Source: Nocardioides baekrokdamisoli (GTDB taxonomy: Bacteria > Actinomycetota > Actinomycetes > Propionibacteriales > Nocardioidaceae). Taken from it: a stretch of 64,000 nt of DNA. Below the pieces are notes generated by a model that was not told the DNA's origin, did not search any database, and saw nothing but the letters and a program-made list of their open reading frames with translations. The position numbers were made by a program, and so were the translations under genes. Below are positions 22,821 through 60,543 of this stretch, piece by piece. Positions within the stretch are counted from its first letter, which is position 1. Each line of letters starts with the position of its first letter. The DNA lies in contig NZ_AP019307.1 in assembly GCF_003945325.1 (NCBI RefSeq), positions 2,108,001 to 2,172,000 on the forward strand. The letters are read 5' to 3'.

Positions 22821-22997
22821 CGCGCCACACCAGCGACCCGCGGCTCAGTCAGCCCGGGCGTACCCAAGGGTGGACCGATGTTGCCTCTGATGCGGCTACC
22901 GGCGTCAGCGGCGCCTCAGGTGAAACAACGGTCCACCCTTGGGTACGCGGTCGGCACGGCTGTTGCCGCGGTGGTCGCCGCCTCGAGATAGCGCGCC
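22803..22997. repeat. 24-bp direct repeats flanking a near-perfect inverted repeat
   Basis: An identical 24-bp sequence starting GTCGCCGCCTCGAGATAG occurs at 22803-22826 and 22974-22997, 171 bp apart (57 codons). Between them, 22858-22883 and 22926-22948 form an inverted repeat whose core CGTACCCAAGGGTGGACC pairs perfectly, with a small bulge at the loop side and a ~42-base loop. The first direct repeat includes the stop of the upstream gene; the second lies just before the proC promoter region. This looks like an insertion with long flanking duplication, or a duplicated gene end. The hairpin could also terminate transcription. Confidence 0.75.
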
Positions 22998-44914: not shown

Positions 44915-45789
44915 CCGATCTCCCGTTCAGGACCCAGGTCTGGGCCATTCCGCTGCGCGACCGCTTCCGCGGGATCACCGTCCGCGAAGGGATGCTCATC
45001 GAAGGAACGGCTGGCTGGGCCGAGTGGTCACCCTTCGTCGAGTACGACGACGCCGAGGTGGCGAACTGGCTCCGTTGTGCGCTCGAGGCCGCGGCCGGGG
45101 ACTGGGCTCCGCCGGTCCGGACCGAGGTTCCGGTCAACGTCACGGTGCCTGCCGCCAGTCCGGAGCGGGCCGCCGAGATCGTACGCACCTCGGGCCTGAC
45201 CACGGCCAAGGTGAAGGTCGGCGAGGTGCTGGCCGAGGACGTCGAACGGGTCGCCGCCGTCCGGGATGCGCTCGGTCCTGCCGGACGGATCCGGGTCGAC
45301 GTCAACGGGCTGTGGACGGTTGATGAGGCCCCGGCTGCCATCCGCCTATTGGACGCCGCCGCCGGCGGCCTGGAGTACGTCGAACAGCCGTGCGCGACCG
45401 TGCAGGACCTGGCAGCCGTCCGTCGCCGCGTGGACGTGCCGATCGCAGCGGACGAGTCGATCCGCCGCGCCGAGGACCCGTACCTCGTCCGTGAACTCGA
45501 AGCCGCAGACATCGCCATCCTCAAGGTGCAGCCTCTCGGCGGCGTACGCGCCTGCCTGCGGATCGCTGAGGACATCGGCCTGCCGGTGGTGGTGTCATCG
45601 GCGCTCGAGTCGAGTGTCGGGTTGGCGGCCGGGTTCGCACTTGCGCGAGCATTGCCCGAGCTCCCGTACGCCTGCGGTCTCGCCTCCGACGCACTGTTCG
45701 CGCCGACGGCCGAGTCGCACCCCGCGGCGTCGGCGGTGCGTACGCAGTGGTGGGAGGACCGGTTGAGGAGGGTGTACGCGCATGTCTGA
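44911..45789 (+). CDS. menC: o-succinylbenzoate synthase
   Basis: Enolase-superfamily dehydratase that forms the aromatic ring. The 292-residue protein has the catalytic K-x-K in TTAKVKVGEV (near residue 96), metal ligands Asp in IRVDVNGLWT, Glu in YVEQPCATVQDL and Asp in IAADESIRRAED, and the opposing base in IAILKVQPLGGVRA. It sits between menE and menD, overlapping menD by eight bases. Confidence 0.94.
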   Translation: MTDLPFRTQVWAIPLRDRFRGITVREGMLIEGTAGWAEWSPFVEYDDAEVANWLRCALEAAAGDWAPPVRTEVPVNVTVPAASPERAAEIVRTSGLTTAKVKVGEVLAEDVERVAAVRDALGPAGRIRVDVNGLWTVDEAPAAIRLLDAAAGGLEYVEQPCATVQDLAAVRRRVDVPIAADESIRRAEDPYLVRELEAADIAILKVQPLGGVRACLRIAEDIGLPVVVSSALESSVGLAAGFALARALPELPYACGLASDALFAPTAESHPAASAVRTQWWEDRLRRVYAHV

Positions 45790-47422
45790 GGCACGCTCAG
45801 GTGACGCAGTCTCGTCCGACGCGACCGTGATAGCCCGCGCGGTCGTCTCCGAACTCATCGCCTGCGGCGTACGCGAGGTCGTGATCGCCCCGGGATCCCG
45901 CAACGCTCCGCTGTCGTTCGCGGTGTACGACGCGGCACAGGCCGGGTTGCTCCGCCTGCACACCAGGATCGACGAGCGATCAGCCGGCTTCCTGGCTCTG
46001 GGTCTCACGAAGGCCGGGTCGCTCGCAGCCGTGATGTGCACCTCGGGGACTGCGGTGGCGAACCTCCATCCCGCCGTCCTGGAAGCTGCGCACGCCGGTG
46101 TTGGCCTCGTGGTGGTGACAGCCGACCGACCGGCCGCCCTGCGCGGGACGGGTGCGAACCAGACCACCGATCAGGTGGGCATCTTCGGCTCGGCGGTGTC
46201 GACGGTTGACCTGTCGACCGATGACGTCCCGCTGCTCGGCTCGTGGGTCACCCACTGGAACGTCCAGTTCACCGAGCCGCTCACGCCGGGGGATCGTTGG
46301 ACTCCGGCGCCCGTGTCGTCCGCCGAGACCCCCCTGTCGTCCGATCTTCCGAACGTTCGGAAGGCGATGGCGGCGTCTTCCGAACGTTCGGAAGATCGAC
46401 CTGGGACCCGCCTCGCTCAGGGCCCACGCACCGTCGTGGTCGCCGGCGATGACGCCGGGCCCCGTGCCCGCCAGATCGCCCGGGCCGGCGGCTGGCCGTT
46501 GTTGGCCGAGCCGTCTTCGGGGGCAAGGTGCGGTGACAACGCGATCCGTACCTACCGACTCCTCCTCGACGGCGAACTCGGGAGCCAGATCGAGCGGGTG
46601 ATCGTCGCCGGCCATCCGACGCTGTCGCGGCCTGTCGCACAGTTGCTCGCGCGCGCTGAGGTGTACGAGCTGCCTGCCCGGGGCATCTGGCCGACGCGCC
46701 CGTTCGAGGTCTCCGGCGTGATCTCCGAAGACGTCCTGGTCGAGGAGGCCGGCGACGCGGCGTGGCTCGAGGCCTGGCAGGCGGCGGACCGCGACCTCGG
46801 CCGTCGGGTCGATGCGCACCTGGTCGAGGAGGGCTTCACTCCGCACGATGTCGCAGCGGCCGTCGGCAACGCCCTCAAACCCGGCGAGCAGCTGATCGTC
46901 GGTGCGTCGAACCCGATCCGTGACCTCGACCTGATGATGCGGCCGTACACCGTCGGCGAACGCCGCAAGGTCCTCGCCAACCGTGGTCTTGCCGGCATCG
47001 ACGGGGTCGTCTCGACCGCGATCGGTGTGGCCCTGACCCGCGACACGCAGGCGTACGCACTGATGGGCGACGTCACCTTCCTGCACGACTCGAACGGCCT
47101 CATCCTCGGCCCCGACGAGCCTCGGCCCGATCTGGCGATCGTGGTCGTCAACGACGACGGTGGTTCGATCTTCGCGACGCTCGAGCAGGGCGCCGAGGCG
47201 TACGCGGACCGCTTCGAGCGACTCTTCGCGACGCCCCATGGCGTCAACATCGAAGCGCTCTGCGCGGCCACGCGTACGCCCCACCTCAAGGTCACCTCGC
47301 GCCTCGAGCTCGAGCAGGCACTGGCCCACCCCAACGGCGGCATCGAGGTCATCGAGGCCCGGGTCGGCCGGCGGGACCGGCGTGCTCTCGAGGCGACGTT
47401 GCGGGGCCTCGTCTCAGGCTGA
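45782..47422 (+). CDS. menD: 2-succinyl-5-enolpyruvyl-6-hydroxy-3-cyclohexene-1-carboxylate synthase
   Basis: Thiamine diphosphate enzyme joining isochorismate and 2-oxoglutarate. The 546-residue protein has the pyrimidine-binding domain with EVVIAPGSRNAPLSFAVYDA and LHTRIDERSAGFLALGL, TSGTAVANLHPAVLEA, and the diphosphate-binding domain with GLAGIDGVVSTAIGVAL and LMGDVTFLHDSNGLILGP, then VNDDGGSIFATLEQG. Residues 187-206 (SDLPNVRK ... SSERSEDR) are encoded by a 57-bp palindromic element in the linker between domain I and II, a likely surface loop. The element is a multiple of three, so the frame survives. It converges on the MFS gene with a nine-base overlap. Confidence 0.95.
   Translation: MSEARSGDAVSSDATVIARAVVSELIACGVREVVIAPGSRNAPLSFAVYDAAQAGLLRLHTRIDERSAGFLALGLTKAGSLAAVMCTSGTAVANLHPAVLEAAHAGVGLVVVTADRPAALRGTGANQTTDQVGIFGSAVSTVDLSTDDVPLLGSWVTHWNVQFTEPLTPGDRWTPAPVSSAETPLSSDLPNVRKAMAASSERSEDRPGTRLAQGPRTVVVAGDDAGPRARQIARAGGWPLLAEPSSGARCGDNAIRTYRLLLDGELGSQIERVIVAGHPTLSRPVAQLLARAEVYELPARGIWPTRPFEVSGVISEDVLVEEAGDAAWLEAWQAADRDLGRRVDAHLVEEGFTPHDVAAAVGNALKPGEQLIVGASNPIRDLDLMMRPYTVGERRKVLANRGLAGIDGVVSTAIGVALTRDTQAYALMGDVTFLHDSNGLILGPDEPRPDLAIVVVNDDGGSIFATLEQGAEAYADRFERLFATPHGVNIEALCAATRTPHLKVTSRLELEQALAHPNGGIEVIEARVGRRDRRALEATLRGLVSG
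46342..46398. repeat. 57-bp double-palindrome element inside menD
   Basis: Two 22-bp arms, 46342-46363 and 46377-46398, are exact reverse complements separated by 13 bases. Each arm also contains a perfect 18-bp palindrome, CTTCCGAACGTTCGGAAG (46346-46363 and 46377-46394), with centres 31 bp apart. It lies in frame in menD and encodes 19-20 residues. The same 57-bp architecture recurs at 58725-58781 in nuoG. No other copy was found in the window. Confidence 0.9.
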
Positions 47423-48601
47423 GACGAGCTCCGGCTCGGCGTCCTCGGGGACTGCGGCGCGGGCGGTGGCGATGACACCGACGACGGCGATCACTGTGCC
47501 GACGCCGCCGGCCAGCAGGACTCCTGCCGTCCAGCCGCCGCGGTCGAGTGCCACCCCGATCAGCGGTGAGCCGACGGCACTGCCGAGCATCATCGCCGAG
47601 CCGTGCCACCCCATCGCCTCGCCTCGATTGGCCGAGGGCACCAGTTGCGACAGGGCATGGGTCATTGCGGTCATGGCCGGCGCGCAGAACGCACCGCTCA
47701 CGGTCAGCAGCACGATGTAGCTCCACTGCTGGTCCGCGACCGCGATGAGTGCCGTCGACAGGCCCAGGAGCAACAGCAGCGTCGCCGCCGACGGGCGGCG
47801 CCGCAGGCCTCCGTACACGAGACCTCCGACCGCGGACCCGGCTCCCCACAACCCGAGCACCCAGCCGATGGCCTCCGGCCGACCCCAGCCGCGCATGGCT
47901 GCCACGACGGACATGTCCTCGCCGGTCAGGATGATGATCGCCGCGATCGACATCGCGAACACCGCCAGGATCGGCCAGGTCAGTCGCAGTCGATTCGTGC
48001 GCTCGGCTGGCGCGGATCCTTCCGAACGCAGCGGCGGGTTGACCCACCAGATCAGCATCGAGCCGGTCAGTTGTGTCATCGCGCAGATGAACAGCGCCAG
48101 TGGCGTCGGCAGTGTGGTGGCGGCGAGTACGCCGAGGACCGGGCCGACCATGAACGTGATCTCGGTGGCGATCGAGTCGATCGAGAGCGTCGTCGCCCGC
48201 TGGTCCTCGCGGACCGCGCTGATCAGGACCGTACGGATGATCGAGAACGCCGGCACCGTGAACAGCCCGGCCAGACCGTTGAGCACCAACAGGGGCCAGT
48301 ACCCGACCCACGGCGCGATCGACCAGGTCGCCGCGAGGACGATGATGGAGGGCGCGATCGCGCGCCGTACACCGAGTTGGTCCAGTCGTCGGCCGCGCCA
48401 GGGCCCACTGATGCCGAGGGCGAGTCCGCCCACTGCGGCGACCAGACCCGCATCGGCGTAGCTGCCGTGCAGATGCGTCACCACGTGCAGCGTGATCGCC
48501 ATTTCGCTGGCCCAGAGCGGGACACGGACCACCAGCCCCAGGATCAGGATCCGACGAACGATGGGGATGCGCAGCACGTCAGCGTACGTTGCGAAACCCA
48601 T
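47414..48601 (-). CDS. major facilitator superfamily transporter
   Basis: A 395-residue membrane protein with about twelve hydrophobic helices, such as ILILGLVVRVPLWASEMAIT, YADAGLVAAVGGLALGI, WPLLVLNGLAGLFTVPAFSI and YIVLLTVSGAFCAPAMTAM. The loop GPWRGRRLDQLGVRRAIAPS after helix 2 is the MFS motif A region in degenerate form. The sequence resembles actinobacterial multidrug-type MFS proteins, but substrate is unknown. Its 3' end overlaps menD (convergent) and it is divergent from the metallo-hydrolase at 48654. Confidence 0.87.
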   Translation of the reverse strand: MGFATYADVLRIPIVRRILILGLVVRVPLWASEMAITLHVVTHLHGSYADAGLVAAVGGLALGISGPWRGRRLDQLGVRRAIAPSIIVLAATWSIAPWVGYWPLLVLNGLAGLFTVPAFSIIRTVLISAVREDQRATTLSIDSIATEITFMVGPVLGVLAATTLPTPLALFICAMTQLTGSMLIWWVNPPLRSEGSAPAERTNRLRLTWPILAVFAMSIAAIIILTGEDMSVVAAMRGWGRPEAIGWVLGLWGAGSAVGGLVYGGLRRRPSAATLLLLLGLSTALIAVADQQWSYIVLLTVSGAFCAPAMTAMTHALSQLVPSANRGEAMGWHGSAMMLGSAVGSPLIGVALDRGGWTAGVLLAGGVGTVIAVVGVIATARAAVPEDAEPELVSA

Positions 48602-48653
48602 GCGTCGATTCTCCTGATACGGCGTTCAAAGCGCGACTGATTTACTGGCGCCC

Positions 48654-49295
48654 ATGAGTGCAGAACGCGTGACGAAGTTCGGCCATTCCTGCGTACGCAT
48701 CGAGTCGGGCGCGGCGCGGATCGTGATCGATCCCGGCATGTTCACGGATGCGGGTGCCGTCGACGGAGCGACCGCGATCCTGATCACCCACGAACATCCC
48801 GATCACTACTTGCCGGCCCATCTGCTGGCGTGCGATGCGCCCGTCGTCACCATTCAGGCGGTGGCCGACAAGATCCGTGCGGAGGCACCCGAGGCGTACG
48901 AGCGCGTACGCGTGATCGCGCCGGGGGAGACTGTCGATCTTGGCGTCCCGGTGACGGCCGTCGGTGAATTGCATGCGGTGATCCACCCGGAGATGCCGCG
49001 GTTCAACAACTCTGGCTTCCTGATCGAGGCGACGAAGACGTACTTCCACCCCGGCGACGCGCTGACCGCCCCGGACGGTCCCGTCGACGTGCTGTTCGCG
49101 CCGGTGTCAGCGCCCTGGGCTCGATCGTCTGAACTCATCGACTTCATGCGCGCGGTGAAGGCCCCGCAGAACCTCGCGATCCACGATCGGATCTACAGTG
49201 ACCTCGGCGCCATGATCTTTGATGGCCACGTGAACGCATTCCTGCCCAAGGAAGGGCTGGCGTACACGCGACTCGGTGATGGAGAGGACTTCTGA
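48654..49295 (+). CDS. metallo-beta-lactamase-fold hydrolase (UlaG-like)
   Basis: A 213-residue metal-dependent hydrolase. It has FGHSCVRIESGAARIVIDPG at the start, the zinc motif ILITHEHPDHYL (HxHxDH), VGELHAVIHPE and TYFHPGDALTAPDGPVDVLF with the later metal ligands, and NLAIHDRIYSDLG near the end. This matches the UlaG-type L-ascorbate-6-phosphate lactonase/DUF family, whose members act on varied substrates; the specific one is unknown. It ends with a one-base stop-start overlap with the YciI gene. Confidence 0.87.
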   Translation: MSAERVTKFGHSCVRIESGAARIVIDPGMFTDAGAVDGATAILITHEHPDHYLPAHLLACDAPVVTIQAVADKIRAEAPEAYERVRVIAPGETVDLGVPVTAVGELHAVIHPEMPRFNNSGFLIEATKTYFHPGDALTAPDGPVDVLFAPVSAPWARSSELIDFMRAVKAPQNLAIHDRIYSDLGAMIFDGHVNAFLPKEGLAYTRLGDGEDF

Positions 49296-49579
49296 TGGGT
49301 CTGTTCGTGGTGCGGTACGACTACCGCGACGGTTCCGAGGCGACGCAGGACGTCCACCGGGCTGCTCACCGCGATTGGTTGGCGGCCCAGCCGGGCCTGC
49401 GCGCGGCTGGCAAGACCGACGACAACGGCGGGGTCCTCATCTTCGAGGACGCGGATGCTGAGTCGCTGGCGGTGCTGCTGAAGGACGACCCGTTCCTCGC
49501 CGTCGACGTCATCGGGTCCACGAAGATCTCCGGATGGGCGATGCCGCTCGGCACCTGGAAGGCCCCGCTCGGCCTCTGA
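49295..49579 (+). CDS. YciI-like domain protein
   Basis: A 94-residue ferredoxin-fold protein of the YCII superfamily: FVVRYDYRDGSEATQDVHRA with the characteristic Arg/His, HRDWLAAQPGLRAAGKTDDN and VLLKDDPFLAVDVIGSTKI. Members are small and mostly uncharacterised, some with dehalogenase-like or regulatory roles. It follows the metallo-hydrolase with a one-base overlap (TGATG), suggesting a functional pair. Confidence 0.85.
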   Translation: MGLFVVRYDYRDGSEATQDVHRAAHRDWLAAQPGLRAAGKTDDNGGVLIFEDADAESLAVLLKDDPFLAVDVIGSTKISGWAMPLGTWKAPLGL

Positions 49580-49607
49580 CGGCCCGTCGCCGGCGTTCTC
49601 CGCGCTC

Positions 49608-49654
49608 GCGGGCCCTCAGGCCCGCTTCGCTTGTGCGGCCTTGGTGCCGCGCAC
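49608..49654. terminator. paired hairpins between convergent genes
   Basis: GCGGGCC-CTCA-GGCCCGC (49608-49625) is a perfect 7-bp stem, and a second hairpin follows: GTGCGGC (49633-49639) pairs with GCCGCGCAC (49646-49654) with a bulge. They occupy the 76-bp gap between the YciI gene and the end of menF on the other strand, suiting bidirectional termination. Confidence 0.65.
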
Positions 49655-49655
49655 G

Positions 49656-50858
49656 TCACCCGCCGAGGGCGTCGCGTACCGGGACGAACTTGGCCTCAGA
49701 CTCGATCCACTCGGCGTCGGCGTCGGAGGAGCCGACGATGCCGCAGCCCGCGAAGAGCCGAATCTGATTGCCGGTGATCTGGGCCGATCGCAACGCGATG
49801 CCCCACTCTCCGTCGCCGCTGGCGTCGATCCAGCCGACGGGGCCGGCGTACCGGTCCCGGTCCATGCCTTCCAGTTCGGTGATCAGCGCCAGCGCGGCTT
49901 CCGTGGGAGTGCCGCCGACCGCGGCGCTGGGGTGCAGTGAGGCAGCCAGTTCCAACGCGGTCGAGGAGTCGTGCGCGACACCGGTGACGTCCGTGGCCAG
50001 GTGCATCACGTTCGGGAGGTGCAGCACGTACGGCGCCTCGGGGACGTTCATCGAGGAGCAGTGCGCCTCCAGCGCCGAGGCCACCGACTCCACGGCGTAC
50101 TCATGCTCCTCGAGGTCCTTGCTGGATCGCGCCAGGGCAGCCGCCAACGCCAGGTCCTGACCGTCGTCGCCGGTGCGCCGGATCGTGCCAGCGAGTACGC
50201 GGGAGGTGACCAGGCCACGTTCGCGGCGTACGAGAAGTTCGGGGGTGGCGCCGAACAGGCCGTCGACGTGGAAGGTCCAGGTGTTCGGGTATTCCGCCGC
50301 AAGCCGCCGCAGCGGCCCGCGTACGTCGATCGGTTCCGCGGTGGTGACGATGAGGTCGCGCGCGAGGACGACCTTGTCGAGGTCGCCGTGTTGGATCCGC
50401 GACACCGCGTTGCGGACCGTCTCGAGCCACGTCTCGCGATCGAGCGCACCGTCGGACCAGGCCAGGTCCGGCGTGGGTGCCACCGGTTCGGGCATCGGCT
50501 GGAGTGCGTCGTTGACGGTGGTGATCCACGTGGTCGCCCCGCGCCGGCCGATCACCATCTCGGGGACGATCAACGTCGAGTGTCCCGGCTCGTCGGCGAA
50601 CGCGAAGGCACCGAAGGCGACCAATCCGGTGCCCGGCTCGTCGACCTCGTCGGTGACCTCCGAGCGAGCGGCCAGTTCGGCGAACCACTTGCCCGCGTCG
50701 GAGAAACGGGTAGGACCAGCGGTCCGGATCTCGGCGGCCCGGCCGAAGGCGACCAGGCCCTCACCGCGGCGTACCCATGCCAGCGGGTAGTCCTCCGGCA
50801 GATGGTCGAGCAGGTCGTCGGACGCGGAAAGGCGCGTCGTACGCACGATCAAGCTCAC
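49656..50858 (-). CDS. menF: isochorismate synthase
   Basis: Chorismate-binding enzyme that makes isochorismate, the entry to menaquinone synthesis. The 400-residue protein has the C-terminal chorismate-binding core: VRNAVSRIQHGDLDKVVLAR, WTFHVDGLFGATPELLVRRE with the catalytic Glu, GTIRRTGDD, HLPNVMHLATDVTGV, SLHPSAAVGGTPTEAALALI and the final YAGPVGWIDASGDGEWGIAL with FAGCGIVGSSDADAEWIE. This is the EntC/MenF family; no siderophore genes are near, so the menaquinone role is favoured. Divergent from the small membrane protein at 50903. Confidence 0.93.
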   Translation of the reverse strand: MSLIVRTTRLSASDDLLDHLPEDYPLAWVRRGEGLVAFGRAAEIRTAGPTRFSDAGKWFAELAARSEVTDEVDEPGTGLVAFGAFAFADEPGHSTLIVPEMVIGRRGATTWITTVNDALQPMPEPVAPTPDLAWSDGALDRETWLETVRNAVSRIQHGDLDKVVLARDLIVTTAEPIDVRGPLRRLAAEYPNTWTFHVDGLFGATPELLVRRERGLVTSRVLAGTIRRTGDDGQDLALAAALARSSKDLEEHEYAVESVASALEAHCSSMNVPEAPYVLHLPNVMHLATDVTGVAHDSSTALELAASLHPSAAVGGTPTEAALALITELEGMDRDRYAGPVGWIDASGDGEWGIALRSAQITGNQIRLFAGCGIVGSSDADAEWIESEAKFVPVRDALGG

Positions 50859-50902
50859 CCTTGGGAGCCTAACGGCTGCACCATCGGGTAGCGTCAGCGA
50901 CC

Positions 50903-51415
50903 GTGACGAAGAAGTCGTACGTAGCCGAGAACGGCCTCACGCTTGGTTTGATCGGGCTCGCGGTGCTGGTGATCTTCGCGGTCGCCCTGCCGCGCTGGAC
51001 ACATCACCAGGACTTCAAGGCGATCAAGCTGCCCGCGACGATCGATGGCGGCTACACGCTGGTGGACGCCTCGGTGTCCCCGCAGCTGAAGCAGGTGCTG
51101 TCGCAACTGTCCGACTCCGCCTCGAAGGCCGAGGGCGTCGGTGCGACGTCCGCGCTCTACAAGTCGGCCGCGGACACCTTCGCGGTGACCGCCGTACGCA
51201 AGGGCTCCTCGACTGCGCCGATGATGGTTCCGCTGAGCGCCATCGGCACCTACAGCAAGGTCGGCGACGACACCTGCTTCCAGGCGTCCAGTCAGTCCAG
51301 CCCGTACACGGCCTGCTTCCGGTCCTCGGCCGAACTCACCGTCGAGGTCACCTCGAGCGCTGCGCCGGCCGATCTGGCCAAGCACCTCGACGAGATCTGG
51401 AAGAAGACCAGCTGA
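50903..51415 (+). CDS. DUF4245-type single-pass membrane protein
   Basis: A 170-residue protein with one N-terminal hydrophobic segment (LTLGLIGLAVLVIFAVALPR, about residues 12-31) and an extracytoplasmic domain starting FKAIKLPATIDGGYTLVDAS. Two cysteines in DTCFQASSQ and YTACFRSSAE could form a disulfide. The architecture suits the DUF4245 family of actinobacteria; function unknown. GTG start at 50903, in a 44-bp divergent region with menF, and menG follows three bases after the stop, so it is the first gene of a two-gene unit. Confidence 0.65.
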   Translation: MTKKSYVAENGLTLGLIGLAVLVIFAVALPRWTHHQDFKAIKLPATIDGGYTLVDASVSPQLKQVLSQLSDSASKAEGVGATSALYKSAADTFAVTAVRKGSSTAPMMVPLSAIGTYSKVGDDTCFQASSQSSPYTACFRSSAELTVEVTSSAAPADLAKHLDEIWKKTS

Positions 51416-51418
51416 CGT

Positions 51419-52108
51419 ATGGCGCGCGCCCAGCTCGACAAGCAGCCGAGCGACGTACGTCGGATGTTCGACGCCGTCGCGCGTCGCTACGACCTCACCA
51501 ACGACGTCCTCTCCTTCGGCCAGGACCGCCGCTGGCGCCGACAGGTGCTCCGGGTAGTCCAGCCTCTGCTGGGTGAGCGGATCCTCGACCTCGCCGCCGG
51601 CACCGGCACCTCGTCGGTGCCGTTCCGCGAGGCCGGTGCGTACGTCGTCCCGACCGACTTCTCGCTCGGGATGCTCTCGGTCGGCAAGGCGGCCCGACCC
51701 GAACTGCCGTTCACGGCCGGTGACGGGACCAAGCTCCCGTACGCCGACGACACCTTCGATGCTGTCACGATCTCGTTCGGGCTGCGCAACATCGTCGACC
51801 CGGTCGCCGGGCTCCGCGAGATGCTGCGGGTGACCCGTCCCGGGGGCCGGATCGTGGTGTGCGAGTTCAGCCACCCGACCAACGGTGCGTTCCGCAAGGT
51901 CTACCTCGAATACCTGATGAAGGCGCTGCCGTCGGTCGCCAACGCGGTCTCGTCCGCGCCGGACGCGTACGTCTATCTCGCCGAGTCGATCCGGGCGTGG
52001 CCCGACCAGCACGGTCTCGCGCGGATGCTGGCCGAGGCTGGGTGGAAGCACCCGCGCTTCGTCAACCTGAGTGGCGGCATCGTCGCCCTGCACCACGCGA
52101 CCGCCTGA
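51419..52108 (+). CDS. menG: demethylmenaquinone methyltransferase
   Basis: Final step of menaquinone synthesis. The 229-residue UbiE/MenG protein contains the family motif [20 protein letters not shown] (UbiE signature YDxxN), SAM motif [41 protein letters not shown], and [18 protein letters not shown], with [20 protein letters not shown]. Start ATG 51419. Its last bases overlap the 3' end of the convergent MOSC gene. Confidence 0.95.
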
Positions 52109-52586
52109 CCCCGGCCGAAACCCGGCATCTGTCAGTCCGAGACCCGACATCCGTCAGGGTCGAGACCCGAACTTCGTCACCGACTCTGATCTCGCCTGAG
52201 CTGAGGATCCGGAAGATCGTCCCGGCCCGCCTGCTCAGCGCCCGCGCGGCTCCAGGCCCGATCGTGTCGTCGAGCAGACGGCACGGCGCCGCGATGCGTA
52301 CGACCTCCAACTCGACGTCGCCGATCCGCAGCCGATCGCCGGGGACCCGGGGGATCGGGCCGACGTCGACGGTGATGTTGCGGCGGGTGAGTTCAGGTGC
52401 GAACGTCCGCCCCAGCTCGACCGCGCCCTCGTCCAGCGCATCCTGAGCCTGGATCGTCACGTGGCGATGCTTTGTCCCGTGATATCTGTCGCCGACCAAC
52501 CCGACCCCGGCCTCGGCGAGCACTGACGACCTCGCGACCATCGGCAGCCGCACGCCTGGCGCGGTGTGGATCGCGATCACCTTCAC
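52062..52586 (-). CDS. MOSC domain protein
   Basis: A 174-residue protein with the MOSC fold of molybdenum-cofactor sulfurase C-terminal domains. [40 protein letters not shown] and the [20 protein letters not shown] segment are typical, and the conserved Cys lies in [18 protein letters not shown]. The role is presumably carrying sulfur or sulfite-like groups. The last ~40 codons (from about 52182 down) are made by three tandem 22-23 bp repeats and overlap menG by 47 bases, so the natural end may be near [12 protein letters not shown] 52586 is proposed as start; ATG 52616 is possible. Confidence 0.8.
52115..52181. repeat. three degenerate 22-23 bp tandem repeats
   Basis: Units at 52115-52136, 52137-52159 and 52160-52181 follow the pattern CCGARACCCGRCATCYGTCA. 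The first two agree best, the third (CGAGACCCGAACTTCGTCA) is more diverged. They lie just after the menG stop on the plus strand and within the reading frame of the MOSC C-terminus on the minus strand. Confidence 0.75.
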
Positions 52587-52731
52587 GTCACCACGGTACG
52601 TGGCTTGTGATCGCATTCACGAGTGCGTTGGTGAGCGAGGTGTGATGCCGGGGCAATCGGCCCGTGACCTCCCGACCCCCGCCCTTGCTTGACTCCATTC
52701 GGCCCGGTGGCAGGATGTGACCTGAGCCACA

Positions 52732-52749
52732 TTGTGATCTGTTTCACAA
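52732..52749. promoter_or_regulatory. Rex operator upstream of nuoA
   Basis: TTGTGATCTGTTTCACAA matches the Rex consensus TTGTGAANNNNTTCACAA at every defined position except one (A to T at position 7). It ends 33 bases before the nuoA ATG, well placed to block transcription. rex itself is at 30974 in this window, and the nuo operon is a known Rex target in Streptomyces. A weaker dyad TGTGACCTGAGCCACA lies immediately upstream (52717-52732). The rest of the 52617-52781 region shows no other feature. Confidence 0.88.
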
Positions 52750-52781
52750 AGTCGGACGATGAGCGAGAGGAGGCGACGCGG

Positions 52782-53132
52782 ATGTACGCACCAGTGATTG
52801 CTCTGGCTGCGCTCGCGCTCGCATTCGCGGTCGGCTCGGTCGCGATGAGTCAGCTCACCGGGCCGAAACGCCGCAACCGGGCGAAGCTCGATTCGTACGA
52901 GTGCGGCATTGATCCGACGCCTGAGGCGCTCGCCGGTCGCTTCCCGGTGAAGTACTACCTGATCGCGATGCTCTTCATCGTCTTCGACATCGAGACCGTC
53001 TTCCTCTACCCGTGGGCGGTCCGCTTCGACGCCCTCGGCTGGTTCGGTCTCGGAGAGATGACGGTCTTCATGCTGACCGTCTTTGTCGCGTACGCGTATG
53101 TCTGGCGTCGCGGCGGATTGGAGTGGGACTGA
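52782..53132 (+). CDS. nuoA: NADH-quinone oxidoreductase subunit A
   Basis: Membrane subunit of complex I (ND3-like). The 116-residue protein has three hydrophobic helices: [40 protein letters not shown] and [18 protein letters not shown]. The loop [15 protein letters not shown] with its cysteine is the conserved quinone-site loop. ATG 52782 is preceded by GAGAGGAGG (52765-52773); an earlier in-frame ATG spans the Rex operator and is rejected. First gene of the operon. Confidence 0.96.
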
Positions 53133-53686
53133 TGGGACTCGAAGAGCAGCTTCCGGCAGGCGTACTCCTCACCACCGTCGAGGGTGTCGCCGGCTACATG
53201 CGCAAGGCCTCGCTGTGGCCCGCGACGTTCGGTCTGGCCTGCTGCGCGATCGAGATGATGACGAGCGGCGGCCCCAAGTACGACCTCGCCCGCTATGGCA
53301 TGGAGGTGTTCCGTGCCTCCCCGCGCCAGGCCGACCTGATGATCGTCGCCGGGCGCGTGAGCCAGAAGATGGCGCCGGTCCTGCGCCAGATCTACGACCA
53401 GATGGCCAACCCGAAGTGGGTCCTGGCGATGGGCGTCTGCGCCAGCAGCGGCGGCATGTTCAACAACTATGCGATCGTCCAGGGCGTCGATCACATCGTC
53501 CCCGTCGACATGTACTTGCCCGGATGTCCGCCGCGCCCCGAGATGCTGATCGACGCGATCCTCAAGCTCCACGACGACATCCAGCACGGCAAGCTCGGCG
53601 TCAACCGCCGCGAGCAGATCGCCGAGCACGAGACCAGGGCGCTGCGTCAGTTGCCACTCATCGATGACACCGGGTTGCTGCGATGA
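53132..53686 (+). CDS. nuoB: NADH-quinone oxidoreductase subunit B
   Basis: Carries iron-sulfur centre N2 next to the quinone site. The 184-residue protein shows the ligands [13 protein letters not shown] (tandem Cys), [15 protein letters not shown] and [35 protein letters not shown] is also conserved. It starts at ATG 53132, sharing one base with the nuoA stop, and overlaps nuoC by four bases. Confidence 0.97.
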
Positions 53687-54207
53687 CCGGCCTCGAGACG
53701 CCGCTGAGCGGCTACTCGACCGGCGAGGTGGAGCAGTTGCAGCCTCTGGGTGAGATCAGTGAGTTCCGCGGCGAGATCACCGTGCGCGTACGCCGCGAGC
53801 AGCTGCTGGCGGTGCTCAAGATCTGTCGCGACGACCTGCGGTTCGAACTGTGCACGGGTGTCAGCGCGGTCCACTATCCGCAGGACCACGGTGTCGAACT
53901 GCACGCCGTCTATCACCTCCTCTCGATGACCTGGAACCGTCGCATCCGGATCGAGGCAGCCGCACCGGACAGCGATCCGCACCTCCCCAGTGGGGTTGCG
54001 CTCTACCCCACCCTCGACTGGCACGAGCGCGAGGCGTACGACATGTTCGGCCTGATCTTCGACGGACACCCGGCGCTCACCAGGATCCTCATGCCCGACG
54101 ACTGGCAGGGCCACCCGCAGCGCAAGGACTACCCGCTCGGCGGAGTGCCGGTGGAGTACCACGGCGCGACCATCGCACCGCCGGACGAGCGGAGGTCGTT
54201 CCGATGA
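53683..54207 (+). CDS. nuoC: NADH-quinone oxidoreductase subunit C
   Basis: 30-kDa type peripheral-arm subunit of 174 residues, shorter than in Mycobacterium. [60 protein letters not shown] (the family signature WxERExxDMFG) and [20 protein letters not shown] are recognisable. The N-terminal extension of longer NuoC proteins is mostly absent. Overlaps nuoB by ATGA, and its stop overlaps a 31-codon ORF rather than nuoD directly. Confidence 0.93.
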
Positions 54208-54299
54208 GAGCGATGTCGATTCGATCGCTGGCCGCACGCGTACGCGCGCAGGTCGAGGCTCAGCGCAAGACCCTCGACCTCCGGGCGGTGTCGCGATGA
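54204..54299 (+). CDS. 31-residue small ORF nested between nuoC and nuoD
   Basis: Reads [20 protein letters not shown] followed by [11 protein letters not shown], a very basic, probably helical peptide. It begins with an ATG that overlaps the nuoC stop (ATGA, 54204) and ends with a TGA that overlaps the nuoD ATG (54296), the same four-base coupling used by nearly all genes here. GGAGG lies at 54191-54195, eight bases before the ATG, an ordinary ribosome-binding site, whereas nuoD has no good site of its own. No known complex I subunit matches. It could be a real small protein or a spacer read to carry ribosomes to nuoD. Confidence 0.6.
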
Positions 54300-55603
54300 C
54301 GGCGAAGCCCACCCGTGCGTACACGGTCACCGGTCAGGACTGGACCGATCTGGCCGACGACATCCGTGAGCACCATGACGAGCGGATCGTGGTCAACATG
54401 GGTCCGCAGCACCCGTCGACCCACGGCGTGCTGCGGCTCATCCTCGAACTCGAGGGCGAGTCGGTCATCAAGGCGCAGGCGGGCATCGGCTACCTGCACA
54501 CCGGCATCGAGAAGAACCTCGAGTACCGCACCTGGACCCAGGGCACCACCTTCGTCACCCGGATGGACTATCTGAGCCCGTTCTTCAACGAGCAGGCGTA
54601 CGTGATGGGCGTCGAGCGTCTCCTCGACATCGAGGATCAGATCCCGGAGAAGGCGCAGGTCATGCGGGTGCTCCTGATGGAGCTCAACCGGATCTCGAGC
54701 CACCTGGTCTGCATCGCCACCGGTGGCATGGAGATCGGTGCGCTGACCGTGATGACGATCGGGTTCCGCGAGCGCGAACTCGTCCTCGACCTGTTCGAGT
54801 TGATCACCGGCCTGCGGATGAACCACGCGTTCATCCGCCCCGGGGGCGTCGCGCAGGACCTCCCCGACGGAGCCCTCAAGGAGATCAAGGACTTCGTCAA
54901 ACTCTTCCGTACGCGGCTCCCCGAGTACGCGGCGCTCTGCAACGCGAACCCGATCTTCAAGGGCCGGCTCGAGGGCATCGGCCACCTCGACCTCGAGGGC
55001 TGTCTGGCGCTGGGCCTCACCGGCCCGATCCTGCGGTCGACCGGGTACGCCTGGGACCTGCGCAAGACCCAGCCCTACAGCGGGTACGAGGACTACGACT
55101 TCGACGTCATCACCTGGGACACCGCCGACTCGTACGGACGGTTCCGGGTGCGTCTGGCCGAGATGGAGGAGTCGCTGCGGATCGTGGAGCAGTGCGTACG
55201 CCGGCTCGAACGGCTGGACGGCGCACCGGTGATGGTGGCGGACAAGAAGATCGCCTGGCCCTCGCAGCTCTCGGTCGGCACCGACGGCCTGGGCAACTCG
55301 CTCGACCACATCCGACACATCATGGGTGAGTCGATGGAGGCGCTGATCCACCACTTCAAACTCGTCACCGAGGGCTTCCAGGTGCCGGCCGGGCAGGTCT
55401 ACTCCGCCGTCGAGTCACCTCGTGGGGAGCTCGGCGCACACGTCGTCTCCGACGGCGGCAACAAGCCGTACCGCGTCCACTTCCGTGACCCGAGCTTCAC
55501 CAATCTGCAGGCCACCTCGGTGATGTCCGAGGGCGGGATGGTCGCCGATGTGATCGTCGCGATTGCCTCCATCGATCCCGTCATGGGAGGAGTCGACCGA
55601 TGA
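54296..55603 (+). CDS. nuoD: NADH-quinone oxidoreductase subunit D
   Basis: 49-kDa subunit with the quinone-binding cavity. The 435-residue protein contains [60 protein letters not shown] and the C-terminal [20 protein letters not shown] followed by [10 protein letters not shown]. Conserved quinone-site His in HPSTHGVL and Tyr are present. No good ribosome-binding site of its own; initiation probably depends on coupling from the small ORF. Confidence 0.96.
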
Positions 55604-56223
55604 TCACCGACAAGACCCGCGATGAGCTGCGTGAGATCGCGGCCCGCTACCCCGAGGGCCGCTCCGGCCTGCTGCCGATGCTGCACCTGCTGCAGTCGGT
55701 GCAGGGTCACATCACCCAGGCCGGCCTGGAGGAGTGCGCTGCGGTGCTCGACCTGACCACGGCCGAGGTGGCCGCAGTGGCGACCTTCTACTCGATGTAC
55801 AAGACCAAGCCGGTCGGCGACCACCTCGTCGGCGTCTGCACCAACACCCTGTGCGCGGTCATGGGTGGCGACCTCATCTACGAACGGCTGCAGCACCATC
55901 TGGGTGGGAACGAATCGGCCGATGGCGCGATCACGCTCGAGCACGTCGAGTGCAACGCGGGCTGCGACTACGCGCCGGTCGTGATGGTCAACTGGGAGTT
56001 CTTCGACAACCAGACTCCGGACAGTGCCGTCGAACTCGTCGACAACCTCCGCGCAGGCCACACCGTGACTTCCCCGCGCGGCGCTGAAATCACCTGCTGG
56101 CGCGACGTGGAGCGCGTACTCGCCGGGTTCGAGGACGGCCGCGCCGACGAAGGCCCCTCGGCTGGCACAGCCTCGCTCGTCGGTCTGCGCAAGGCCGCCG
56201 CACTCGAGGAGGAGGCCGGATGA
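55600..56223 (+). CDS. nuoE: NADH-quinone oxidoreductase subunit E
   Basis: 24-kDa subunit with a [2Fe-2S] cluster (N1a). The 207-residue thioredoxin-like protein has the ligands in [14 protein letters not shown] and [18 protein letters not shown] (C-x4-C and C-x3-C). [20 protein letters not shown] is typical. The C-terminal ~35 residues ([20 protein letters not shown]) are a low-complexity extension. Overlaps nuoD and nuoF by four bases each. Confidence 0.95.
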
Positions 56224-57500
56224 GCCAGTTGCTGCCCGTCCTCACCGAGAACTGGGATGTCGAGCGTTCCTGGACGCTGGAGGGCTACGGCCCGTACGCC
56301 GCGCTGGACCGCGCGCTCACCCTCGAGCAGGACGCGGTCATCGAGGAGGTCAAGGCCTCGGGCCTGCGTGGCCGTGGCGGCGCCGGCTTCTCCACCGGCA
56401 CGAAGTGGGGCTTCCTCCCGCCGTTGGGGGACTTGCCGCGCTATCTCGTCGTCAACGCCGACGAGTCCGAGCCGGGCACCTGCAAGGACATCCCGCTGCT
56501 GATGGCCTCCCCGCACACGCTGATCGAGGGCATCGCGATCTCCTCGTACGCGATCCGCTCGCACTCCGCGTTCATCTATCTGCGCGGCGAGGTCGTGCAC
56601 GTCTACCGCCGCCTGCTGGCCGCCGTGCGCGAGGCGTACGCGGCCGGCCACCTCGGCAAGGACATCCACGGGTCCGGGTACGACCTCGACGTCATCGTCC
56701 ACGCCGGCGCCGGTGCGTACATCTGCGGCGAGGAGACAGCGCTGCTCGACTCGTTGGAGGGTCGCCGCGGTCAACCCCGACTGCGTCCGCCGTTCCCTGC
56801 CGTCGCCGGCCTGTACGCCTGCCCGACGGTCGTCAACAACGTCGAGTCGATCGCCGCTGTGCCGGCGATCATCGGCCACGGACCCGGCTGGTTCGACAGC
56901 CTCGGCACCGAGACCTCGAAGGGTGTCGGGATCTTCTCGCTCTCCGGCCACGTGAAGGAGCCGGGTCAGTACGAGGCTCCCCTGGGCATCACCCTGCGCG
57001 AGCTGATCGACTTCGCCGGAGGCATGCGCGAGGGCCACACGCTCAAGTTCTGGACGCCGGGTGGTTCTTCGACGCCGTTGTTCACTGCTGCTGAGCTCGA
57101 TGTCCCGCTCGACTTCGAATCGGTCGCCAAGGCGGGCTCCATGCTCGGCACCCGCGCCCTGCAGATCTTCGACGACAGCGTCTGTGTTGTCCGGGCGGTG
57201 CTCCGCTGGACCGAGTTCTACGAGCACGAGTCGTGCGGCAAGTGCACCCCGTGCCGCGAGGGCACGTACTGGCTCAAGCAGGTGCTCGCACGGCTGGAGA
57301 AAGGCGACGGCACGGCCGAGGACCTCGACCTGCTGCTCGACCAGTGCGACAACATCGCGGGGAAGTCGTTCTGTGCGCTCGGTGATGGCGCGACCGCGCC
57401 GATCATCTCCTCGGTCACCCTGTTCCGCGACGAGTACATCGCGCATTTCGAGCATGGTGGCTGCCCGTTCGACCGCGAAGCGAGCGTGGCCTGGTCATGA
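56220..57500 (+). CDS. nuoF: NADH-quinone oxidoreductase subunit F
   Basis: 51-kDa subunit where NADH is oxidised. The 426-residue protein has the NADH site GLRGRGGAGFSTGTKWGFLP, the FMN site VHAGAGAYICGEETALLDSL with EGRRGQPRLRPPFPAVAGLY, and the [4Fe-4S] N3 ligands ESCGKCTPCREGTYWL plus the distant Cys in GKSFCALGDGATAP. Coupled by ATGA on both sides. Confidence 0.97.
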   Translation: MSQLLPVLTENWDVERSWTLEGYGPYAALDRALTLEQDAVIEEVKASGLRGRGGAGFSTGTKWGFLPPLGDLPRYLVVNADESEPGTCKDIPLLMASPHTLIEGIAISSYAIRSHSAFIYLRGEVVHVYRRLLAAVREAYAAGHLGKDIHGSGYDLDVIVHAGAGAYICGEETALLDSLEGRRGQPRLRPPFPAVAGLYACPTVVNNVESIAAVPAIIGHGPGWFDSLGTETSKGVGIFSLSGHVKEPGQYEAPLGITLRELIDFAGGMREGHTLKFWTPGGSSTPLFTAAELDVPLDFESVAKAGSMLGTRALQIFDDSVCVVRAVLRWTEFYEHESCGKCTPCREGTYWLKQVLARLEKGDGTAEDLDLLLDQCDNIAGKSFCALGDGATAPIISSVTLFRDEYIAHFEHGGCPFDREASVAWS

Positions 57501-59293
57501 GCAACGTTTCTGAAGAGCGCAGTGTGACGCTCACCATCGACGGCCGCGAGGTCACCGTGCCCGAAGGCACCCTGATCATCCGGGCGGCCGAGCAACTCGG
57601 CATCGACATCCCGCGCTTCTGCGACCACGAACTACTCAAGCCCGCAGGTGCCTGCCGTCAGTGTCTTGTCGACATCCCGGATGCGGGCAACGGGCGCGGC
57701 TTCCCCAAGCCGCAGGCGTCCTGCACCATTCCTGTCGCGGCCGGCATGGTCGTCGAGACCGCGTCGCCGAGTGCCGCCAAGGCGCAGGCCGGGGTGATGG
57801 AGTTCCTGCTGATCAACCACCCGCTCGACTGCCCGGTGTGCGACAAGGGCGGCGAATGCCCCCTGCAGAACCAGGCGATGAGTCACGGCGCCGGGGAGAC
57901 CCGCTTCGACGGGGTGAAGCGGACGTACGAGAAGCCGATCCCGGTCTCGGACACGATCCTGCTCGACCGTGAGCGGTGCGTCCTCTGCCAGCGGTGTACG
58001 CGCTTCGCCGAGGAGATCGCCGACGACCCGCGCCTGGTCCTGATCGAGCGCGGTGCCCGTCAGCAGGTCGGCACGGTCGACGGGGAGCCGTTCGACTCCC
58101 CGTACTCGGGCAACATCATCGATCTGTGCCCGGTCGGGGCCCTGACCAGCACGGACTATCGATTCCGCGCCCGACCGTTCGACCTGGTCTCCAGTGACTC
58201 GATCGCCGAACACGACGCCTGCGGTGCCGCCATCCGTGTCGACCACCGCCGCGGCAAGGTGATGCGGCGGGTTCCTCGCGAGGACGCCGAGGTGAACCAG
58301 CAGTGGATCACCGACCGCGACCGCTTCGAGTTCCGCTACCTCACCCGGGATCGGGTGAAGATGCCGCTCATCCGTGAGAACGGCGCACTGCGGGTGGCCT
58401 CGTGGCCCGAGGCTCTCGGGCTCGCGGCTGGCGGCCTCGCCGCTGGGCCGACCGCTGTCCTCACCGGCGGCCGCGTGACCCTCGAGGACGCGCGAGCGTA
58501 CGCCACCTTCGCTCGCGAGACGCTCGGCACCGAGGACATCGACTTCCGCGACACCGCGACGCCTGAGGAGACCGCGTTCCTGCACCAGCACGTACGCGGT
58601 GCCGAACTGGTGACGTACTCCGACCTGATGGCCGCCGATGTCATCGAACTCGTCGGTCTGGACCCGAGGGCCGAGGCGGGGACGATCGACCTCTGGCTGA
58701 TTCAGGCTCAGAGGGCCGGCGCCTCGATCTTCCGAACGTTCGGACGACCGCCCGCCGACCATCCGAACGTTCGGAAGATCGGCGGCGACCGCCCTCTCAC
58801 CAGCCGGTCGGTGATCTTGGTGGGGCGTGATGCGGCGGCGACACCCGGACTCCTCGACGAGGCCGTCGCGGCTGCCGCCAACGCGAGCGCACAACTCGCC
58901 TGGGTCCCGCGCCGTGCAGGTGATCGGGGCGCGGTCGAGGCCGGCTGCTTCCCCTTGCCCGGGGGCCGGGACGTCGACGAGATCGTCCGTGCCGCGACGA
59001 TCGGCCAACTCCGGGGTCTGGTCCTCGGCCGCGTCGACGCGACTTCCGAACTGATCGATGCGGCCACCCGTACGTTCACGGTCTCGCTGGAGACGAACCG
59101 CACGGACCTCGCCAAGGTCGCGGACGTCGTGCTGCCGATCGCAGCTCCCGCGGAGAAGGCCGGCACCTTCGTCACCTGGGAAGGCCGCGAGCGTCCGTTC
59201 GACAGGGTCTTCGACGCAGGTGCGTACACCGACGTGCGGGTGCTCGCCGAGCTGGCCAAACGGATCGAAACCGCCAAGGCGGTGAGCGCATGA
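57497..59293 (+). CDS. nuoG: NADH-quinone oxidoreductase subunit G, compact form with palindromic insert
   Basis: 75-kDa iron-sulfur subunit. Residues 1-~220 have all expected ligands: [20 protein letters not shown] ([2Fe-2S] N1b), [20 protein letters not shown] (His-Cys N5) and [20 protein letters not shown] (N4). The rest is the molybdopterin-oxidoreductase-like domain. At 598 residues it is well below the usual size of actinobacterial NuoG (over 750), so this domain is trimmed, though the late motif [20 protein letters not shown] survives. Residues 410-429 (IFRTFGRP ... HPNVRKI) come from a 57-bp palindromic element. Confidence 0.93.
58725..58781. repeat. 57-bp double-palindrome element inside nuoG
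   Basis: Arms 58725-58746 and 58760-58781 are 22 bp each with a 13-base spacer, exactly the layout found in menD. Each arm contains TCCGAACGTTCGGA (58731-58744 and 58762-58775), centres 31 bp apart; the outer CGATCTTCC and GGAAGATCG ends agree with the menD copy. Three or four arm positions have diverged (inner ends ACG and CAT instead of AAG and CTT). It is in frame here but read in a different codon phase from the menD copy. Confidence 0.9.
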
Positions 59294-60543
59294 TCCCCAG
59301 CGCATCAACCATCCACGACCCCGCCTGGGTGATCACGATCAAGATGTTCCTCGTCTTCGGCATCCTGGTGCTGCTGACGCTGTTCAACATCTGGTGGGAG
59401 CGTCGCGTCGTGGCGCGGATGCAGCACAGGATCGGCCCCAACATGCACGGTCCGTTCGGCCTCCTGCAGAGCCTCGCCGACGGCGTGAAGCTGGCGCTGA
59501 AGGAGGACCTCACACCCAGCAGGGCGGATGTCGTCGTCTTCACGATCGCGCCGGTCCTGGCTGTCGTCCCCGCGTTCCTGGCGTTCTCGGTGATCCCGAT
59601 GGGCCCGGTCGTACGCATCCCGTGGACCCAGACGTACACGGCGCTTCAACTCGCCGATCTGCCGGTCGGGGTCCTCTTCGTGATGGCACTCGGCAGCCTC
59701 GGGATCTACGGCATCGTTCTGGGCGGCTGGGCCTCGGGGAGTACGTATTCACTGCTCGGCGCCCTGCGCTCGAGCGCCCAGATGATCTCGTACGAGGTCT
59801 CGATGGGGCTGGCTCTGGTCGCCGTGTTCGTCTACTCCGGCAGCCTCTCGACGAGCGACATCGTCCTCGCGCAGGCGCACTGGTGGAACGGTGTCGTGCT
59901 CCTGCCGAGTTTCGTCATCTATGTGCTGTCGATGATCGGTGAGACGAACCGGGCGCCGTTCGACCTCCCCGAGGCGGAGGGCGAGCTCGTCGGCGGTTTC
60001 CACACCGAGTACTCGAGCCTGCGCTTCGCACTCTTCTTCCTCGCGGAGTACATCAACATGGCCACGGTGTCAGCGCTGGCGACGACGTTGTTCCTCGGCG
60101 GCTGGCACGGGCCGATCGAGTCGGGCGCCTGGCCGGTGTTGTGGTTCTTCGTGAAGGTGTTCGCCTTCATCTGGTTCTTCATCTGGCTGCGCGGGACGCT
60201 GCCGCGGCTGCGCTACGACCAGTTCATGGCGCTCGGCTGGAAGATCCTGCTCCCCGCCTCCCTGGTCTGGATCGGGGCGGTGTCGATCGCCCGGATGGCG
60301 GCGCTCAAGAACGGGATCGATGAGCGGCCATGGCTTGCGCTCGCGGGAGGTGTCGTCACCCTCGCGATCGTCTGGGTCATGCTGTCCAAGCGCGAGAAGG
60401 CGGCGATTGCCTCGCCTGCGCAGCACGCGTTCCCGACACCGGAGCTGCCGGCGGGCGGTGTCGTACGCGGTGCCGCAAAGCCGCTGACCTTCCCGACGAT
60501 CGGTCGACCAGCGGCCCTTGAGACCAAGGAGGTCGACGCATGA
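59290..60543 (+). CDS. nuoH: NADH-quinone oxidoreductase subunit H
   Basis: ND1-like membrane subunit at the base of the quinone site. The 417-residue protein has about eight helices. Conserved loops are [60 protein letters not shown] and [20 protein letters not shown]. The C-terminal ~55 residues after the last helix are a cytosolic tail. Four-base overlaps with nuoG and nuoI. Confidence 0.97.

Follow-up and report, generated by a model that had tools for sequence, protein, structure and literature searches.

Why does the menD gene of Nocardioides baekrokdamisoli contain, in frame with its coding sequence, a 57-bp double palindrome, and has this unit been kept for the peptide that it encodes or for its DNA? 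The window analysed here is a 64,000-nt stretch of the forward strand (assembly GCF_003945325.1, contig NZ_AP019307.1, positions 2,108,001-2,172,000), with window positions counted from its first letter, and searches denoted as whole-genome covered the complete 2.97 Mb, which is one contig.

The menD unit and its genome-wide family

An initial annotation had described the menD unit as two 22-bp reverse-complement arms around 13 bases, each arm containing CTTCCGAACGTTCGGAAG, and had noted the same layout in nuoG. Both descriptions were borne out by the coordinates (menD arms at 46342-46363 and 46377-46398; Table 1). The arms in menD extend to 25 nt at 96 percent when analysed with a repeat finder, and the two 18-mers of the nuoG element are each one base off the menD 18-mer.

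Table 1. Palindromic elements of menD and nuoG, with their cores and host genes, in window positions.
Feature	Position	Strand	Remarks
menD element, 57-bp double palindrome, in frame	46342..46398	.	ATCT to AGAT encodes residues 188-205 (DLPNVRKAMAASSERSED)
menD element, first 14-bp core TCCGAACGTTCGGA	46348..46361	.	
menD element, second 14-bp core	46379..46392	.	31 bp from first core
menD, host gene	45782..47422	+	
nuoG element, 57-bp double palindrome, in frame	58725..58781	.	ATCT to AGAT encodes residues 411-428 (IFRTFGRPPADHPNVRKI)
nuoG element, first 14-bp core	58731..58744	.	
nuoG element, second 14-bp core	58762..58775	.	31 bp from first core
nuoG (598 aa), host gene of second element	57497..59293	+	

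The menD unit belongs to a lineage-specific family of palindromic elements built as inverted dimers, with 15 copies dispersed over the genome, which agrees with the earlier proposal of a repeat family lying in frame in both genes. We found 35 exact copies of the 14-bp core TCCGAACGTTCGGA in the whole genome, compared with about 0.009 expected at the base composition of the window, and these cores formed 15 clusters, being 10 pairs and 5 triples. Neither a solitary exact core nor a copy with one mismatch was present anywhere in the genome, and the 10 sites having two mismatches were scattered singles, with a backward control pattern giving 2. Within the window, four palindromic sites of the menD type were found at up to three mismatches, against 0.02 expected and a maximum of one in 100 shuffles.

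The half-site consensus of these dyads was ATCT-TCCGAACGTTCGGA-NGG, with the dyads placed 31-33 bp apart. The outward flank AGAT was close to invariant (A 27, G 30, A 29 and T 30 of 30) and continued with its next bases as AGAT(C/T)GG, while the two G of the inward NGG were found in 38/40 and 29/40 cases; pairs of CGAACGTTCG occurred 20 times in the genome. Behind the triple at C1:1156095-1156200 comes a fourth unit, truncated to half a core and a repeated flank, as a trace of tandem duplication.

Placement of the clusters and their occurrence in orthologues

Six of the 15 clusters lie inside genes, all of them in frame, and nine between genes, so that the motif is not confined to the two genes first noted. 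The hosts, as identified by Pfam and protein matches, are menD, nuoG and the genes for an AAA/VWA Mg-chelatase-like protein, a GNAT acetyltransferase, a 2-oxoacid dehydrogenase E2 and a PabB-like chorismate-binding enzyme. All six intragenic elements are positioned outside the best Pfam stretches listed; in nuoG this refers to the stretches with a given position, a second molybdopterin stretch being counted there without one. In MenD (546 residues) the element falls between the TPP_N (18-133) and TPP_C (389-515) stretches, in a part that aligns poorly with the solved MenD 9dqi. This position fits the earlier assignment to a linker joining domains I and II. The core peptides read SERS, PNVR or RTFG, with all three reading frames being used.

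Among the nine intergenic clusters, six were found between convergent genes, all in short gaps, three between tandem genes and none between divergent genes. Using our own mechanical gene calls in the window as background, convergent placement was enriched (6/9 clusters versus 8/57 neighbouring gene pairs, P 4e-4), as was intergenic placement (9/15 clusters versus 13 percent of window bases, P 3e-5). Three clusters are located upstream of a gene, these genes being rpiB, a LigD primase-polymerase gene and a thiolase gene. The element next to rpiB (PF02502, minus strand) is a triple in tandem context, the third core of which extends into a TetR-like gene at its 3' end, and this element supplies a stop codon; at the thiolase gene, also in tandem context, the gene starts downstream of the element. 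No pathway was common to the host and neighbour genes scanned with Pfam, and no transposase family scored over the cut-off in the 25 host or neighbour ORFs scanned at the elements. The distribution of clusters between ori and ter, with ori placed at the parS cluster (1.725 Mb), did not deviate significantly (KS P 0.10; largest gap P 0.48).

The core spacing was 32 bp in 9/9 intergenic clusters and either 31 bp (five) or 33 bp (one) in the intragenic clusters (P = 2e-4). This difference favours the acquisition of a unit that had to match the reading frame in length, since point changes in place give no reason for it when no frame of the core, as read from the sequence, holds a stop; the 33-bp case requires a further small length change. 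The clusters are thereby pointing to gain of discrete units under frame selection.

Absence from close relatives had been proposed as the hallmark of insertion, and here the relatives were compared as proteins, with the nucleotide fit worked out through back-translation by hand. Paired core peptides were absent at the same place in 9/10 close relatives of MenD (75-83 percent identity) and in 6/7 of NuoG (80-87 percent identity), most of the MenD orthologues examined thus being devoid of them. The aligned MenD stretch of N. baekrokdamisoli was 13-17 residues longer than in seven relatives, 8 longer than in one and shorter than in two, one of these two being P0008, which carries paired PNVR peptides. 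As linker length varies, MenD length alone was rejected as proof of insertion. NuoG was 7-16 residues longer than in six relatives and 1 longer than in P0122, in which both core peptides are kept and the spacer residues differ. Some relatives lacking the pair nonetheless have similar peptides, with MenD of P0002 reading DLPLVRN where N. baekrokdamisoli has DLPNVRK, and NuoG of P0124 and P0126 reading RAFGG and RPFGG in place of RTFGR; judging from these peptides, one core may in part be linker sequence of older date or else a copy that has decayed.

In PabB, however, the site was present in 4/7 close relatives, two of them with changes, and the stretch was not longer in N. baekrokdamisoli than in most relatives (75 vs 64-83). 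The sites in N. baekrokdamisoli, P0242 and P0246 were retrieved by exact peptide search and those in P0243 and P0247, having changes, by eye. With the site absent from P0244, P0245 and P0248 and decayed in P0247, relatives can evidently do without it. The claim of insertion held for MenD and NuoG as far as absence in relatives goes, with the PabB site and the possible older part of a core speaking on the other side, and we consider insertion into MenD and NuoG to be supported by these alignments but not proven, because linkers vary. MenD of all listed congeners was at most 69 percent identical to that of N. baekrokdamisoli, placing this genome on a long branch.

Selection on the cores and paired dyads in other genomes

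When a DNA core is followed through orthologous proteins in different frames, selection on the DNA can be told apart from selection on the protein. The first PabB core is read as SERS in N. baekrokdamisoli and P0246 and as PNVR in P0242, so that selection seems to be on the DNA and not on the peptide; the core spacings there, worked out by hand, were 31 (N. baekrokdamisoli), 28 (P0242) and 29 (P0246). Back-translation allowed the full 14 bp at both cores in P0122 and P0008, and the inner 12 bp CCGAACGTTCGG at both cores in P0242, P0243 and P0246, with the full 14 bp being impossible at one core in each of these three. Paired exact core peptides were found in 7 proteins, 3 of them from N. baekrokdamisoli, among the best 120 each of 7944, 8000 and 2462 matches (360 in all).

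A second comparison used the triples, in four of which the two spacers differed at 14/72 positions and the cores at 0/56 (P about 6e-6); the fifth, with 9/18 spacer differences, was excluded as its spacers were not clear copies. From these protein and DNA comparisons it is well supported that selection maintains the cores for their DNA sequence rather than for the peptide, and the combination of an exact core with drifting spacer DNA suggests that some protein still reads these sites. Selection for a hairpin was rejected, with arm-arm agreement at outward positions 2-5 being 0.83 both within and between elements, that at position 1 being 0.93 within versus 0.81 between (P 0.13), and the outer flanks in N. 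baekrokdamisoli being no more complementary than shuffled ones. One cluster of this genome, at 1245873, shows matching changes in both arms.

Pairs of CGAACGTTCG were found in 4/215 genomes of the genus, with 20 in N. baekrokdamisoli, 2 in G168, 1 in G058 and 1 in G082. A scan of genome contigs for CCGAACGTTCGG pairs gave 14 stretches, the one actinobacterium among them being a Nocardioidaceae MAG (G098/G168) with the flanks CTAACC-GAACGTTC-GGTTAG and a third copy having one base changed per arm. The flanks of pair-pattern matches in Bacteroidota, cyanobacteria, Variovorax, an archaeal MAG, a haloarchaeon and Clostridia led us to regard these matches as unrelated. A viral carrier of such pairs was rejected, with no match in viral contigs, as was a mobile carrier of the menD element, with no match in plasmids or phages.

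Using GAACGTTC as the search key, pairs at 24-34 bp were detected in 11/215 genomes of the genus and 14/324 in the family, with 0/324 family genomes for the backward control pattern; the shared centre is conditional on this key, and other centres could exist unseen. G238 and G324, from other genera of the family, each had a single match, which we attribute to chance. Three other genomes had many pairs, being G101 with 11 (partly arrays), G204 with 7 and G288, of another genus, with 7, each having its own flanks and spacings, and the spacing among lineages ranged from 26 to 34 bp. The extended dyad TTG-N3-GAACGTTC-N3-CAA was found on 26/28 sides in G204 (7/7 pairs), 22/24 in G288 (6/7 pairs read) and 8/8 in G197 (2/2 pairs, at loci that look like near-copies), partially in G050 (3/4 sides) and G058 (2/4), and on 0/62 sides in G101, G001, G015, G005, G082 and G168. 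The three bases between TTG or CAA and the centre vary in G204, G197 and G288, and in G288 they differ between the arms in 6/6 elements read by eye, two of which are inverted duplicates. An arrangement of fixed TTG/CAA contacts and freely varying bases in between fits a protein dimer.

Some of these copies deviate in ways of their own. In G101 a six-core tandem array of 29-bp units lies on C12. Two elements of G288 (C1:701242 and C5:63803) look, together with their flanks, like inverted copies, so that a longer stretch seems to have been duplicated. Matching changes in both arms were seen in G168 C7 and in G204 C211. Those in G168 C7 break each local dyad and keep the arms complementary, thus being unfit for a reading of dyads only, and in these two lineages the changes look like arm-arm pairing being favoured.

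Possible functions of the paired dyads

We propose that the paired sites belong to a putative DNA-binding protein, are carried as REP-like units and serve as chromosomal landmarks, a reading to which we give an even chance. A dedicated dimeric protein with a helix-turn-helix, possibly of LacI, TetR or ParB/Noc type, would read the paired dyads. These would be used as scattered landmarks, like the sites of SlmA, Noc or MatP or those of gyrase on REP sequences, which gyrase reportedly binds, and not as promoter operators. Sites would reach new places as discrete units, surviving within genes only in linkers and at lengths that leave the frame intact. Related lineages have GAACGTTC dyads paired in a like manner, with flanks of their own. 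A wider proposal, of an undescribed chromosome-marking system in this actinobacterial family, in which a dimeric protein reads GAACGTTC-centred paired dyads with lineage-specific flank dialects and length-selected units have spread in frame to gene ends and linkers, is tentative and appears to us possible rather than probable. Should there be such a reader, its 15 places would make up a small and complete set for testing whether REP-like elements are kept as chromosome landmarks.

Several points limit the landmark reading. The reader is a candidate only, the lineage spacing of 26 to 34 bp suggests that strict helical phasing is not general, and the anatomy and placement of the elements are equally those of REP dimers. 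The chromosomal ParB was set aside as reader, having three exact canonical parS copies at 1.725 Mb, and the TetR-like gene beside the rpiB triple was dropped, as the gene beside the G168 element resembled it only in a generic way, at 30 percent over 47 residues, and was without a Pfam match. Two ParB-like proteins with ParB HTH domains are encoded at C1:1803774-1804067 and 1808921-1809133, about 80 kb from the chromosomal parAB/parS and perhaps in an integrated element, with nothing tying them to the paired sites.

As for known sites of this kind, PMC4726725 gives about 70 sites for the Noc-binding NBS, with a palindromic consensus of 14 bp, and 24-52 sites for the SlmA-binding SBS. The N. baekrokdamisoli cores share with these and with the matS sites of MatP the scattering of a conserved palindrome over the chromosome (35 exact cores in 15 places), but differ in being always paired or tripled, in having conserved unit flanks and in a reader that is only putative; no significant depletion at ter was seen for them. 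Among the literature matches listed, no title dealt with nucleoid occlusion at palindromic sites in actinobacteria, and none with a meaning of GAACGTTC.

The weightiest rival is a selfish mobile family resembling REPINs or Rickettsia palindromic elements (RPEs), in which a putative transposase would copy the inverted dimer to gene ends and linkers without any host role; we hold this to be rather unlikely. Reports of in-frame palindromic insertions come from Rickettsia as well as other REP-rich bacteria, and most discussion treats such insertions as selfish DNA. REPINs are defined in PMC8049555 as two inverted units around a short and highly diverse spacer, an anatomy matched by the grouped copies in N. 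baekrokdamisoli. According to section 15 of PMC3733652, most REPs are found close to 3' ends, in gaps flanked by convergent or unidirectional genes, with REP dimers also occurring inside genes; the placement found here agrees with this, as do the intragenic dimers, some of which encode about 20 residues, and the element that provides a stop codon. A spacing that differs by frame need, the varying presence among relatives and the multi-copy versions that several other species have of their own also fit this alternative. It is countered, and the notion of plain mobile DNA with it, by the intactness of 35/35 cores, by the lack of one-mismatch cores and of singlets as decaying remnants in spite of widely diverged spacers (one truncated extra unit lies by the triple at 1156095), and by orthologous sites keeping the core across frames. 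The Y1 transposase family of RAYTs (PF01797) was found in 0/2 genomes (N. baekrokdamisoli and G168), a control search detecting it in 5/14, and no transposase appeared among the scanned ORFs. The family furthermore comprises only 15 clusters, each unit being an exact 14-bp dyad, and its consensus has no GTAG or CGTC tag. The outer flanks GTTGACG/CGTCAAC in G288 hold the letters CGTC, as in CGTC-tagged REPs, possibly by chance.

The likeness to RPEs pointed out in the initial annotation is fair as an analogy, both being palindromic repeats found in frame in unrelated genes and also outside genes (6/15 in frame here). Compared by description, however, RPEs are about 150 bp rather than 57 bp and encode a conserved peptide according to PMC10969869, whereas three different core peptides result from the frames used in N. 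baekrokdamisoli. The accompanying statement that no such family was known to its author from actinobacteria agrees with our finding no paper on REPINs in Nocardioides or actinobacteria, which is weak evidence of absence, but for bacteria other than Rickettsia palindromic repeats lying in frame have been published in the form of REP dimers (PMC3733652, section 15).

An element acting at the RNA level, with a long hairpin that terminates the transcripts of two convergent genes alike or protects 3' ends, appears improbable to us. Short convergent gaps hold 6/9 of the intergenic clusters, the predicted RNA folds reach -52 (menD) and -48 kcal/mol (nuoG), and the matching arm changes in G168 and G204 would suit such an element; against it are the six clusters inside genes, triples that do not form one hairpin, the lack of significant covariation between the arms in N. 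baekrokdamisoli, the free bases differing between arms in G288 and the absence of Rfam matches in window 45600-59400.

Ordinary operators of a transcription regulator seem marginally less probable still. In their favour, regulators of LacI or TetR type have operators resembling paired dyads centred on AACGTT, pairs of a similar kind are present in other phyla, and three clusters lie upstream of genes as given above, but none is found between divergent genes, six are convergent and six are inside coding regions, and the scanned genes share no pathway. NrdR boxes, which are two palindromes about three helical turns apart in promoters, are similar in arrangement and differ in sequence and in that location. 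Chance or a codon-bias artefact of low-complexity linkers is refuted by the core counts, the use of three frames and the nine clusters outside genes, and has next to no probability.

Two further kinds of palindromes were noted. An inverted repeat of 37 nt, with 86 percent complementarity and a 17-nt loop, lies at window 22858-22948 in a gap between predicted genes, with a sequence unrelated to the TCCGAACGTTCGGA family, and cyanobacteria and Variovorax have five loci with ACCGAACGTTCGGT-like dyad pairs 27-34 bp apart, which are perhaps regulator operators.
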